Positions 50,914 through 55,749 of a DNA stretch of 64,000 nucleotides are shown here, in pieces (positions within the stretch are counted from its first letter, which is position 1; every line of letters begins with the position of its first letter). Location: positions 372,001 through 436,000 of the forward strand of contig NZ_BEXA01000002.1 in the NCBI RefSeq assembly GCF_003864335.1. The letters are read 5' to 3'. The position numbers were made by a program, and so were the translations under genes. A model generated the notes under the pieces. The model had not been told where the DNA came from. It did not search any database and saw only the letters and a list, made by a program, of their open reading frames with translations. The stretch is from Lentilactobacillus kosonis. Its GTDB lineage: Bacteria; Bacillota; Bacilli; Lactobacillales; Lactobacillaceae.

Positions 50914-53381
50914 TTATTCTACAGGAACTTCTTTCATCTCGTAAGCTTCAACTACATCGCCCACTTTGATATCGTTATAATCTTGAATTGTAAGTCCTAA
51001 TTCGAAACCTTGTTTAACTTCTTTAACATCGTCCTTAAAACGTTTCAAACTATTTAACTCACCATCGTAAATAACAACACTATCACGAATTAAGCGAACC
51101 TTACTGTCCTTCTTAATTACTCCGTCAACTACCATCCCACCAGCAATGGTACCAACTTTAGAAGCCTTGTAAGTTTCACGAACTTCAACTGATCCAGTAA
51201 TTTCTTCTTTGTATGTTGGTTCCAACATACCTTTCATAGCTGATTCAACTTCATCGATCGCATTATAAATAACTTGATGGAGACGAATATCAACATTATC
51301 ACTATCAGCTTGTGCTTTGGCTTGTGGTGTAGGACGCACATTAAAACCGATTACGATTGCATTACTTGCTTCAGCTAGTGCGATATCACTTTCGTTAATG
51401 GCACCAACCGCGGCATGAATAATGTTAACCTTAACACCTGAAACGTCAATTTTTTGCAAGCTATTTGCTAATGCTTCAACGGATCCTTGAACATCGGCCT
51501 TAATTAAAACATCAACTTGCTTCATTTCACCCTCTTTTAGAGAATCAAATAAATTATCCAAAGTTACGTGTGTAGTCTTACGACGTTCTTCAACTTGAGC
51601 TTCCTTAGCACGAGCTTCACCAGCAGCACGAGCGGTCTTTTCATCATCAAAGACAACAAATCGATCACCAGCTTCTGGAACATCGTTCATACCAGTAATC
51701 TCAACTGGCATCGATGGTGTAACCTTCTTTAAGTCACGGCCACGTTCATTATTCATCGTTCTAACCCGACCAAAAGTATTACCAACCACGATTGGATCAC
51801 CAACGTGTAGTGTCCCTTGCTGAACTAACAAGGTTGCAACTGAGCCACGGCCTTGATCAAGTCGAGCTTCGATCACTGAGCCTACAGCTGGTTGATCAGG
51901 GTTCGCCTTTAGTTCCAACATGTCTGATTGTAAGACAATCATATCTAACAATTCATCAATGTTTTTACCAAATTTAGCTGAAATGTTAACGAAGATGGTA
52001 TCGCCACCCCAGTCTTCAGGAATCAGTCCGTATTCAGCAAGTTGTTCGATAACGTGATTTGGATTAGCGTCTGGCTTATCAATCTTGTTCACAGCAACGA
52101 TAATTGGTGTGCCGGCAGCCTTGGCATGGTTAATAGCTTCAATAGTTTGAGGCATAACTCCATCATCAGCAGCTACAACTAAAACAGTTATGTCTGTAAT
52201 ATTTGCTCCACGGGCCCGCATTTCAGTAAATGCAGCATGTCCTGGTGTATCCAAGAAAGTAATGACATTTTCACCATGACGAACTTGATAAGCACCAATT
52301 GCTTGAGTAATTCCCCCTGCTTCACCTGCGGTAATGTGTGAGTGTCTCAAATGATCCAACAAGGTTGTCTTACCATGGTCAACGTGTCCCATGATAGTAA
52401 CAACTGGTGGACGTGATTCTAAATGTTCATCATTAGCCATCTCAGTATCGAAAATTTTATCAATATCAGAAACGTCCTCTTGAACTTTTTCTTCAGCTTT
52501 AATACCGTAGTCAGCAGCTAAGATTTCAATGGTATCTTTATCAAGAGATTGGTTTTGGTTAACCATAACTCCCAACATAAATAATTTCTTAACAACTTCA
52601 GCTGGTTCTCTATGCAATGCTTTACCTAAATCTTGAGCGTTCATGCCATCAAAATACATCAATACTTCTGGTAATGGACGTTCCTTACGTTCAGGCGCAC
52701 CATGATGTTCTACTTCACGCATCCGTTGATTTTTTGCTTCCGTTGTTTCTTTTGACGCTTTTTGTTAGCCTTACGAGAATTATTATTACCTCTCGAAGGA
52801 TTTAAGCTACCGCCAAAACGACCGCTACCACTATTATTACTCCGATGAGCATTGTTAGAGCTTGACTGAGTGGTACTTGGTTTATTTTGAGTATTACTCG
52901 ACTTTCCTTGAGTAGTCTTAGGTTTACTTTGATTATTTGTTTTATTAGCTTGGCTTTGTGATGCATTTTGAGTATTGCCATTGCTACGATTATTACTAGA
53001 ATTCTGGCTATGGTTGTTATTCAAATTATTACTCCGATTGTTAACAGAATTACCACTACGACTATTTGTCGAGTGATTGTTATTATTTTGTTGGTGCTTT
53101 GATTCATTATTACTAGTTCGTGTACCATTATTCGAATGGCTTGAACTTGTAGATTGAGCCTTTCGATCAGCCGGTTTATTACTAGTTGCTTGCTTAGCTG
53201 ATGGTTGACTTTTAGCTTGTGATGATCCACCAAGTACTTGTCGTAAATGTTGCTCTTGATGATCGTCGACCGTCGACATGTGATTCTTAATGTCATAACC
53301 GGCATCTGCAGCTTTATCTAAAATCGCTTTACTGGAGACATTGAGTTCTTTAGCTAATTCATAAATTCGCTTTTTCCCCAT
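50914..53381 (-). CDS. infB: Translation initiation factor IF-2, frameshifted
   Basis: GTPase that brings initiator tRNA to the 30S subunit. IF2_N domain ([36 protein letters not shown]), then about 150 residues of Asn/Ser/Gln-rich low-complexity linker, then second IF2_N, G1 [33 protein letters not shown] (G3), NKIDKP (G4) and the C1-C2 tRNA-binding domains. A missing base in the T-run at 52730-52735 breaks [26 protein letters not shown]. Corrected length about 822. It is an alternative possibility that the internal Met gives a short IF2 form, but no ribosome binding site supports it here. Confidence 0.95.
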
Positions 53382-53385
53382 ATAA

Positions 53386-53703
53386 TCACTCTCCCTTGAT
53401 TTTGTTGGTTAATTGAATCATTTTCTTCGCCATACCTGAATCACTAATACCAATTATACTGCGTTTTACGCCAACAGCATTACTTAGTTCTTCGCTGGTA
53501 AGCAAATTGTTAGTAGGAACATTATAAGAATTGGACTTATCAGTAAACTTTTTAAAAGTATCCTTACCGCTATCACTAGCAATAAATAAAAACTTCAAGT
53601 TATTCGCCCGGAGTTCTTTTAATAAAATTTCCTGACCTGATACTGTCTTCCGTGCTCGTTGAGCCAAACCGAGAAAGTTCAATAATGCCTCTTTATTGTC
53701 CAT
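53386..53703 (-). CDS. rplGA: YlxQ-type L7Ae family ribosomal protein
   Basis: A 105-residue L7Ae/L30e/S12e/Gadd45 fold RNA-binding protein usually found between ylxR and infB. MDNKEALLNFLGLAQRARKTVSGQE is the family start, with KFLFIASDSGKDTFKKF and SELSN-like helix. The ATG at 53701-53703 overlaps the ylxR stop, so an upstream extension to 53748 is not real. Function unknown, perhaps binding kink-turn RNA. Confidence 0.9.
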   Translation of the reverse strand: MDNKEALLNFLGLAQRARKTVSGQEILLKELRANNLKFLFIASDSGKDTFKKFTDKSNSYNVPTNNLLTSEELSNAVGVKRSIIGISDSGMAKKMIQLTNKIKGE

Positions 53704-53992
53704 TTTCAAACAACTCTTTTCGAGCTTGCTTATGATCAATATAGGCAATTAGGTCATCATAAAATGCCTCGTCAATTTTAACTGAAAAGGCTTTTTCAAA
53801 TACGTGTTCCCGCTTAGCTTGGTTAGCTCGGTCAACGTCGATTGAAATATAAGCTCCTCGGCCAGATTTTTTACCAGTTTCATCGATTGAAACTGTTCCA
53901 TCAGCATCACGAACGATTCTGACCAATTCTTTTTTGGGCGCCATTTCACCAGATACGATATCTTTTCGCATTGGGATTTTTCTTTTTTTCAT
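53693..53992 (-). CDS. ylxR: YlxR family RNA-binding protein (DUF448)
   Basis: A 99-residue YlxR protein; the fold is nucleic-acid binding and its known biology (RNase P or nucleoid interactions reported in other bacteria) is thin. Seen: MKKRKIPMRKDIVSGEMAPKKELVRIVRDADGTVSIDETGKKSGRGAYIS, the DUF448 signature (GRGAY). GGAGG precedes the ATG. It overlaps ylxQ by 11 bases. Confidence 0.92.
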   Translation of the reverse strand: MKKRKIPMRKDIVSGEMAPKKELVRIVRDADGTVSIDETGKKSGRGAYISIDVDRANQAKREHVFEKAFSVKIDEAFYDDLIAYIDHKQARKELFENGQ

Positions 53993-54016: not shown

Positions 54017-55157
54017 TTATTCTTCGTTAGTTGAATCTGTGTCGGTTTCGTTTAAAGTTTCATTATCAGAATCAACATCTGCACCATTATCATTGAATTC
54101 TTCAGTTGCAGAATTCATTTCAGCAGCTGCTTCTGACTCAGACTTAATATCAATCTTGAATCCAGTTAACTTAGCAGCTAGTCTGGCGTTTTGACCACGC
54201 TTACCAATAGCTAATGACAATTGATAATCTGGCACAATTACTGTACATGCCCGTTCATTATCAGGATCAAAGATTACGTCAACAACTTCAGCAGGATTCA
54301 AAGCGTTAGCAATGTATCTTGCATCGTCATCATCCCACTCAACAATATCCATATTTTCACCGTTTAATTCATTAACGATAGTTTGGACACGTTGACCCTT
54401 AGGACCAACTGCAGTACCAACCGGATCAATGTCAGCGTTGTTAGTTCTTACAGAAACCTTTGCCCGATCACCCGCTTCACGAGCAATTGAAACGATTTCA
54501 ACAGTTCCATCATAAATTTCAGGAACTTCTTGTTCAAACAATCGCTTAAGCATTCCTGGTTCAGTCCGACTAACAAAAACTTGAGGTCCCTTAGTAGCAT
54601 TTTCAACTTTAGATACATAAACCTTAATTCTTGATTGAGGACGGTACACTTCGTTAGGCATTTGATCTCTCACACCCATTACAGCCTCAACCTTATCTAA
54701 ACTTACATAAACGAATCGGGTATCTTGGCGTTCAATCGTTCCAGTTACCAACTCGTCTTCGTACTTACTATATTCATTAAACACAATTTCGCGCTCAGCT
54801 TCACGAACGCGTTGCATAATAACTTGTTTAGCAGTTTGGGCAGCAATTCGGCCAAAGTTTGAGGAGTAACCTCAACTTGATTTCGTCACCTAATTCATAT
54901 CCACGATTAATGGCTAATGCGTCTTCCAGTGAAACTTGTAGTTGAGGATCAAGAACATCTTCAACTACAGTCTTAACTGCATAGACATGCATATTACCCT
55001 TTTTAGGATCAAATTCAACCTCTACATTTTGAGCTTGACCATAATTACGTTTATAAGCTGAAACTAAAGCTGCTTCTAAAGCTTCAATCACAACTTCTTT
55101 TTTGATACCCTTTTCTTCTTCTAGAGAAGAGAGTGCACCTAAAAGTTCACTACTCAT
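54017..55157 (-). CDS. nusA: Transcription termination/antitermination protein NusA, frameshifted twice
   Basis: Binds RNA polymerase and stimulates pausing and intrinsic termination. N-terminal domain (MSSELLGALSSLEEEKGIKKEVVIEALEAALVSAYKRNY), S1 domain (EDELVTGTIERQDTRFVYVSL) and two KH domains (DPVGTAVGPKGQRVQTIVNEL; SLAIGKRGQNARLAAKLTG), with an acidic tail. Two missing bases, at 54877-54878 and 54854-54856, break DEIK/VEVTPQTF/GRIAAQTAKQVIMQR; repaired length about 380. It may autoregulate through the leader hairpin before rimP. Confidence 0.95.
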
Positions 55158-55172
55158 TATTTTACTCTCCTT

Positions 55173-55643
55173 TTAAAATTTGATTGCTAATCTTGACTTG
55201 GCAATTAATTCACGGGGTACTTCAATAACAGTCTGCTTAGCATCATCTAGTTTAAGTTCAATAGATTCTTCATCAACCTTTAGTAAGGTACCTTCATAGG
55301 CTTTTTGATTATCTAGCTTTTTAAATAAGGACACATGAATATATTGATCAACAGCCTCTTTAAGCTCTTTATCATTTCTTAGCGGACGTTCAGCACCTGG
55401 AGATGAGACTTCTAAGAAGTAAGCCTCTGGAATTGGATCCTCCGGTAAAGCATCGATTTTTTCGCTCAATTCATCAGATACCAATACACAGTCATCAATA
55501 GTTACGCCACCGGGTTTATCAATATAAACTCGTAGGTAATAGCTTTTGTTTTCCTTAACAAATTCAACATCAAATAAGTAAAAAGAATGTGACTCTAAAA
55601 TTGGCTCAACAAGTTCTTTTACTGTCTCAACAACGTTGCTCAA
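55173..55643 (-). CDS. rimP: Ribosome maturation factor RimP
   Basis: Binds 30S precursors early in assembly. SNVVETVKELVEPILESHSFYLFDVEFVKENKSYYLRVYIDKPGGVTIDDCVLVSDELS and LEVSSPGAERPL are diagnostic; the C-terminal SH3-like domain follows. Starts at TTG 55641-55643 seven bases after AGGAGG; the longer frame from 55667 reads back through the ribosome binding site. 156 residues. First gene of the rimP-nusA-ylxR-ylxQ-infB-rbfA operon. Confidence 0.94.
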   Translation of the reverse strand: MSNVVETVKELVEPILESHSFYLFDVEFVKENKSYYLRVYIDKPGGVTIDDCVLVSDELSEKIDALPEDPIPEAYFLEVSSPGAERPLRNDKELKEAVDQYIHVSLFKKLDNQKAYEGTLLKVDEESIELKLDDAKQTVIEVPRELIAKSRLAIKF

Positions 55644-55668
55644 ATATTCTCCTCCTAAAAAATCCAAT

Positions 55669-55698
55669 AAAAAGAGCGAGCGTCTCCGCTCACTCCTT
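55669..55698 (-). terminator. Hairpin terminator/attenuator before rimP-nusA-infB
   Basis: Minus strand GAGTGAGCG-GAGA-CGCTCGCTC then T5 interrupted by ATTGGA and T6. It may end polC and, since a good promoter lies upstream of it, also attenuate the nusA operon. Confidence 0.85.
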
Positions 55699-55720
55699 TT
55701 CCAAGTTATTTAGTAATATA

Positions 55721-55749
55721 AATGTATCACAAAATACCTAGTTTAGCAA
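55721..55749 (-). promoter_or_regulatory. Candidate promoter for the rimP-nusA-infB operon
   Basis: Minus strand TTGCTA (55744-55749), 17 bases, TACATT (55721-55726) with extended TGA before it. It abuts the polC stop and lies upstream of the hairpin at 55669. Confidence 0.6.

Follow-up and report, generated by a model that had tools for sequence, protein, structure and literature searches.

In Lentilactobacillus kosonis, the gap between polC and rimP, the first gene of an operon that also carries nusA and infB, contains a predicted promoter followed by a hairpin with a T-rich tail. Whether this hairpin belongs to the end of polC or acts as an attenuator of the operon behind it, and which protein would set the attenuation, is the question raised by the locus. 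It was addressed here in a stretch of 64,000 nucleotides (hereafter, the window) and in the regions upstream of rimP in related genomes.

The gap between polC and rimP

PolC, RimP, NusA, RnpM and IF2 were identified at the locus by a protein family search, which for infB covered the 602-aa frame (Table 1). Interruption of genes seems to be a property of the assembly. In each of the 23 other genus loci, nusA has an open frame of 376 aa or more, compared with two frames in the window, and the open frame of clpB is 745 aa in the window genome, compared with 864 to 911 aa in 22 of the 23 other loci. The window genome has a completeness of 83% and a contamination of 6.5%; taken alongside the broken frames, these values make the split nusA, the split infB and the short clpB look like products of an indel-prone draft rather than real losses.

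Table 1. Features of the polC-rimP gap and of the downstream operon, with window coordinates
Feature	Position	Strand	Basis or comment
polC stop	55754	minus	polC upstream of rimP
-35 element TTGCTA, predicted rimP promoter	55744..55749	minus	read directly; TTG...17 nt...TGn-10 arrangement also seen elsewhere in the genus
Extended -10 element (TGa)TACATT, hexamer	55721..55726	minus	read directly; 17-nt spacer from the -35
Expected start site	near 55714	minus	predicted
Short leader ACUAAAUAACUUGGAAAAG, expected start site to stem	55696..55714	minus	word in the window, AACUUG
Predicted terminator hairpin, 14 pairs including the A/U base	55669..55700	minus	terminator scan, folding, relatives, covariation
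Hairpin core GAGTGAGCG-GAGA-CGCTCGCTC, also written GAGUGAGCG-GAGA-CGCUCGCUC (stem arms GAGUGAGCG/CGCUCGCUC)	55695-55674	minus	read directly
U-tract UUUUUAUU	55666..55673	minus	read directly
Tail after the hairpin, TTTTTATTGG		minus	read directly
Ribosome-binding site AGGAGG of rimP	55651..55656	minus	read directly
rimP, TTG start at 55643, first operon gene	55173..55643	minus	NF000928, E 1.2e-60
nusA, two frames (109 aa + 266 aa)	54017..55157	minus	TIGR01953 on both frames
rnpM (ylxR)	53693..53992	minus	NF047356, E 2.4e-32
infB, apparently two frames (223 aa + 602 aa)	50914..53381	minus	TIGR00487 on the 602-aa frame

The hairpin tops the list of terminator-like sites in an 8-kb scan (13 sites vs a shuffle mean of 5.4), and none of 200 shuffles of the polC-rimP gap folds as well as the gap itself (z -5.6). 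Together with direct reading of the sequence, these results bear out the preliminary description of the locus, in which a promoter and a terminator hairpin had been placed before rimP. The distance from the end of the hairpin to the ribosome-binding site is 12 nt, which is too small for an ordinary promoter, so that transcripts from an upstream promoter must cross the hairpin.

The promoter proposed in that description, TTGCTA-17-TGaTACATT, leaves 25 nt between the end of the -10 element and the hairpin core. In 22 genus members (the window and its closest relative excluded), the -10 element of the best-scoring promoter ends 23 to 26 nt before the stem, and a putative promoter at this position is conserved in the genus. 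In the window, a second candidate, TTGATA-16-TGcTAAACT (55767-55740), scores higher than the proposed promoter; this candidate is also located upstream of the hairpin. Its counterpart in the closest relative is likewise top-ranked and likewise upstream of the hairpin, and the same relative has TATCAT in place of the TACATT of the window, one base shorter.

Conservation of promoter, hairpin and leader

A RimP match was obtained in all genomes searched (121/121 of the family, 24/24 of the genus and 151/151 of the class, each set including the window genome), and 124 upstream regions were read: 24 from the genus, window included, 60 from family members that represent 39 additional genera, and 40 from genomes that belong to the class but not to the family. 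All 124 contain a hairpin with a T-rich tail upstream of rimP. The hairpin was placed automatically in 116 regions; in the other eight (L026, L031, L032, L040, L042, L063, L065 and L106), for which the finder chose another or a partial hairpin, it was judged by eye, and these eight were excluded from the tail and loop counts and from the alignment and included in the promoter, PolC and fold counts. As to leader conservation among Lactobacillaceae, a check proposed in the preliminary description, the hairpin was present in every genus and family region read. One genus member (G126, region L023) carries about 126 nt more between hairpin and rimP than most of the genus, with promoter and hairpin apparently unchanged.

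A promoter was predicted in 123 of the 124 regions, with TGn before the -10 element in 107 of these 123, and its -10 element falls in distance bins of 15 to 49 nt from the stem in 121 of the 123. The mean promoter score is 13.1, compared with 9.6 in base-shuffled upstream sequence, 1% of which reaches 13.1; the scorer favours TGn and 17-nt spacers in real and shuffled sequence alike.

The stem is strongly conserved. Its outer 7+7 bases are identical in all 24 genus members, whereas 3' terminators of the same genus, used as controls, have mean identities of 0.31 (clpB) and 0.41 (pyk). The clpB value, based on terminator candidates in 21 of 24 loci, is lowered by several candidates that are unconvincing as terminators, but those scoring at least 19 (n=8) still comprise seven different stems; for pyk, a candidate was obtained in 22 of the 23 loci used, and one further locus, matched only in part at the edge of a contig, was omitted. 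Within the genus, then, the terminators of clpB and pyk appear to have been replaced or remodelled, and the rimP leader stem has not.

Across the class, the two arms change together. An alignment of 72 sequences combined 39 family members, six of which belong to the genus, with 33 members of other families, otherwise with one per genus or family; both partners vary in 7 of its 9 stem pairs, and pairing holds in 99.0% of cells. None of 500 shuffles, which ignore the relatedness of the sequences, attains any of the five covariation measures, and pairing falls to 31-61% when the partner is slid. Variation is low in a family-only alignment of 36 sequences, in which two pairs changed on both sides and 2 of 500 shuffles were as high. 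Compensatory changes across the class support the predicted helix. The usual stem in the family is GAGUGAGCA/UGCUC(A/G)CUC, with a G-C replacing the usual A-U next to the loop in the window, and that of other class families is mostly GAGUGGG/CCCACUC. A GNRA loop closes 83 of the 116 automatically placed class leaders; as a general feature of these leaders it was rejected, since by eye it is not typical of 40 leaders from outside the class.

RNA starting at the expected site near 55714 would have 19 nt before the stem core. Of the 124 promoter-derived leaders, 118, that of the window among them, contain the terminator stem in their minimum-energy fold; six (L026, L031, L032, L040, L063 and L065) fold to a hairpin with one mismatch, in some cases beside a second upstream hairpin. 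Neither folding nor reading revealed an antiterminator in the predicted promoter-derived RNA of the window, or a sequence able to sequester the 5' arm; when the full leader is folded, weak pairing encloses the terminator and joins the start-site region to the nucleotides preceding the ribosome-binding site. The predicted folds agree with the earlier proposal of an attenuation layout lacking an antiterminator.

Between start site and stem, short words recur in a lineage-specific manner. Of 66 family leaders (six from the genus and all 60 others), 16 contain ACUCGU, where shuffles give a mean of 0.7 and a maximum of 4; among the 40 leaders of other class families, 13 contain GGnnAUACU (shuffle mean 0.2, maximum 2). 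The enrichment persists with one leader per genus or family and is greater than in the spacer preceding the promoter, but similar values are reached in the coding sequence of polC, still further upstream, so that shared descent or other constraints could yield these figures. No enrichment of the words is seen in the 40 outside-class leaders (GG..AUACU 0/40, ACUC 1/40), where AUACU alone occurs in 6 of 40 (shuffle mean 2.0, maximum 7). The words may reflect the context of the start site and not a site for a protein. Mycobacterial NusA binds boxC-type RNA, which the words faintly resemble; a boxC-like NusA site was set aside, given that the window has AACUUG and not ACUCGU and that the words are not enriched outside the class.

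Five divergent leaders (L026, L031, L040, L063 and L065; genera g2, g7, g16 and g39), perhaps Leuconostoc-like, have by eye an extra inverted repeat, UUUACA...UGUAAA, just 5' of the terminator. It folds alongside the terminator in L026, L040 and L065. Its 3' arm overlaps an A-run that is able to pair with the U-tract, and the repeat and that pairing could therefore exclude each other; a lineage-specific switch is possible in these leaders.

Relation to known rimP leaders

Control of this kind is already known from other bacteria, and the general idea is not new. In the available text of Naville and Gautheret (2010, PMC2965389), a rimP-leader is reported in the majority of species, Firmicutes included. 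As far as that text goes, their leader and that of the window are alike in their position before rimP-nusA-infB, in a terminator hairpin followed by a U-stretch (predicted, in the window) and in having no antiterminator. The signature given there, GGGc...gCCC, is absent from the stem of the window (GAGUGAGCG/CGCUCGCUC) and from all 24 genus members, whereas the GAGUGGG...CCCACUC of other class families does carry its GGG/CCC. Unlike the published signature, most family leaders combine the stem given above, usually with its GNRA loop, with the tail UUUUUA(U/A)UG. From its sequence, the leader of the window is of the rimP-leader attenuator kind, apparently ancient, and represents a variant whose stem departs from the published signature. 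A literature search, weak in that subscription papers were mostly beyond its reach, returned no paper recognised as describing this leader in Lactobacillaceae.

Two other systems are close. According to the accessible part of a review (PMC12288461, on Mondal et al. 2016), NusA of Bacillus subtilis is autoregulated by NusA-stimulated termination in its leader; a terminator controls NusA there as it would here, with NusA dependence measured in that species and predicted in the window. In Streptococcus agalactiae, the available text of one study describes a short and a long RNA from a single start site in the 5' UTR of gbs0413-gbs0418, detected by RNA-seq, with termination 31 nt after the start (PMC4448216). 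This is the same operon as in the window, where a longer terminated RNA, of about 50 nt, would be expected, a difference that weighs against the reading preferred below. The stems of the four f3 regions, taken as streptococcal, start with GAGGCG (three) or GGGGCG (one), not GAGUGAGC.

The spread of the leader was followed with two covariance models, R2, made from the 72 class sequences, and R1, made from the family. In the phylum outside the class, where RimP was found in 116 of 119 genomes, at least 46 of 112 genomes with a RimP match have an R2 match (E <= 0.01, among the matches listed) on the RimP strand and no more than 600 nt ahead of it. A scan of named genomes with one class RimP confirmed 349 loci, of which 80 were kept; R2 matches all 80, in each case ahead of rimP and on its strand. 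The genomes named include Aneurinibacillus, Bacillus, Rossellomorea, Metabacillus, Paenibacillus, Cohnella and others, with B. subtilis not among them. In 40 outside-class stretches that were read, GAGUG is part of the stem in 35, and GNRA loops and leader words are not typical; because these leaders were chosen via R2, the shared stem is partly circular.

Within genomes, the rimP leader stands apart under the family model. In the window genome, R1 gives it 65.9 bits and the next place 35.5, and R2 finds 33 places at E <= 10; among the runner-ups that were read, no regulon copies were recognised, as they resemble 3' terminators after coding frames (L127-L129, read with frames; L130, L133 and L134, from sequence only). 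The frame preceding the first runner-up is presumably yajC. R1 matches anywhere in the genome at E <= 1 in 114 of 121 family genomes, and the seven without a match belong to genera with divergent leader stems (g2, g7, g8, g18, g19, g29 and g39). The word GAGTGAG also starts the stems of unrelated 3' terminators of the genus (L137, L138, L128 and L129) and is therefore not diagnostic of the leader by itself.

A general Rfam search returned nothing relevant at the locus and no row for RF01770 (rimP), a family that, judged by its name, has the same gene context as the leader of the window and does not match it. RF01770 was above its cut-off in 0 of 41 class genomes and in 1 of 14 control genomes, so that the class leaders would go unannotated by it; a profile of the R1 or R2 type could annotate leaders that it misses.

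Candidate regulators of the predicted attenuator

We consider it probable that the leader attenuates the rimP-nusA-infB operon and that NusA tunes its own dose through it. RNA polymerase would start some 19 nt before the hairpin core, on a leader too short for an antiterminator; a fraction of polymerases would halt at the U-tract and release an RNA of about 50 nt, and the remaining polymerases would continue into rimP-nusA-infB. Abundant NusA, a promoter of hairpin-dependent termination that is encoded by the second gene of the operon, would raise the stopping fraction, and the operon would thereby correct its own dose. The start site, the termination event in L. kosonis and any effect of NusA on it are predictions, with NusA feedback at the leader of the window likely by homology and operon logic.

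The preliminary description had taken the interrupted U-tract as the mark of a terminator that needs NusA. Distal U-tract interruptions are linked to NusA- and NusG-dependent terminators in the accessible part of one publication (PMC8060035). The tract was compared with 94 ordinary 3' terminators of the family, drawn from 20 stretches of 20 kb in ten genomes plus the window. Core stability is the same (median -14.1 kcal/mol for controls vs -14.0 kcal/mol for 77 family leaders), and interruption within 8 nt is common to both (114/116 leaders vs 90/94 controls). Interruption within 6 nt was counted in 72 of 77 family leaders vs 64 of 94 controls, a figure that leans toward the earlier idea under a biased selection, since 5 T in 8 were demanded of controls and 4 of leaders as a minimum; the leaders are, moreover, mutually related. 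As a sign of NusA, then, the interruption is weak: with hairpin strength ordinary and interruption common, the sequence itself does not single out NusA, whose role has to be argued from homology and operon logic. Of the earlier claim that NusA autoregulation is shared by lactobacilli, the conserved promoter-terminator-rimP unit, present in family and class, stands, and the argument from the U-tract is weak. The exact tail reads TTTTTATTG or TTTTTAATG in 61 of the 77 leaders of the family, a form that none of the 94 control terminators has; the only one of 95 initial controls with such a tail was the leader of the window itself, which was removed.

It is also conceivable, if unlikely, that the attenuator is not, or not only, under NusA: read-through could occur at a fixed ratio, or the stem could be read by RimP, RnpM/YlxR, a YlxQ-type protein or IF2. 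The operon encodes RNA-binding proteins other than NusA, RnpM at this locus among them, and the sequence of the stem is held much tighter than termination requires. In the available text of Naville and Gautheret, a protein recognising a specific motif is argued for and RimP is mentioned as possible, but NusA is called the best candidate (PMC2965389). NusA is also favoured by the accessible sources on the two other systems, through the NusA-stimulated leader termination reported in B. subtilis (PMC12288461) and the NusA feedback proposed and preferred by the authors of the S. agalactiae study (PMC4448216).

Conservation of the stem appears to far exceed the needs of termination, for which plain stimulation by NusA offers no explanation. 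An unlikely proposal is that NusA does more than assist termination here, and that it, or another protein encoded in the operon, recognises the leader by its sequence, which would make this terminator more sensitive than others to the concentration of that protein. The near-invariant stem GAGUGAGC/GCUC(A/G)CUC and the GNRA loop would form the binding site, to which the lineage-specific single-stranded word (ACUCGU in the family, GGnnAUACU in other families) would perhaps contribute. That the stem is frozen while two other terminators of the genus vary freely points to specific RNA recognition, which is not predicted by the generic role of NusA.

Two further readings, both very improbable, dispense with attenuation. 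A strong hairpin close to the 5' end of an mRNA is able to stabilise it, and the hairpin could protect or process the 5' end of rimP mRNA (for stability, or as an RNase III site) without terminating; the conserved U-tract directly after the stem would have no role there, and premature termination is reported in the available text on S. agalactiae (PMC4448216).

Alternatively, the hairpin could be the mere 3' terminator of polC, and its start 53 nt past the polC stop is indeed a normal distance for a terminator. A PolC C-terminus lies upstream in 85 of the 124 regions, but in the other 39 (two of which, L070 and L114, end early at contig ends) it was not found and the hairpin is retained in all; the hairpin goes with rimP, at 40 to 233 nt from stem to the start of the RimP match. 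Moreover, a promoter at a rather constant distance precedes the hairpin, and the space from hairpin to rimP in the window is too short for an ordinary promoter. The polC reading was rejected on the independence of the hairpin from an upstream polC. In one region (L034, genus g10), the hairpin directly follows a tRNA gene array, with no clear promoter between them, an arrangement reminiscent of the metY-rimP-nusA layout of Escherichia coli.

Altogether, a leader attenuator with NusA adjusting its own supply is the reading that we retain. If it is true, a known feedback loop on essential genes would extend to the Lactobacillaceae, with sequence evidence from 40 genera, and the attenuator probably adjusts the gene dose of the transcription and translation factors encoded behind it.
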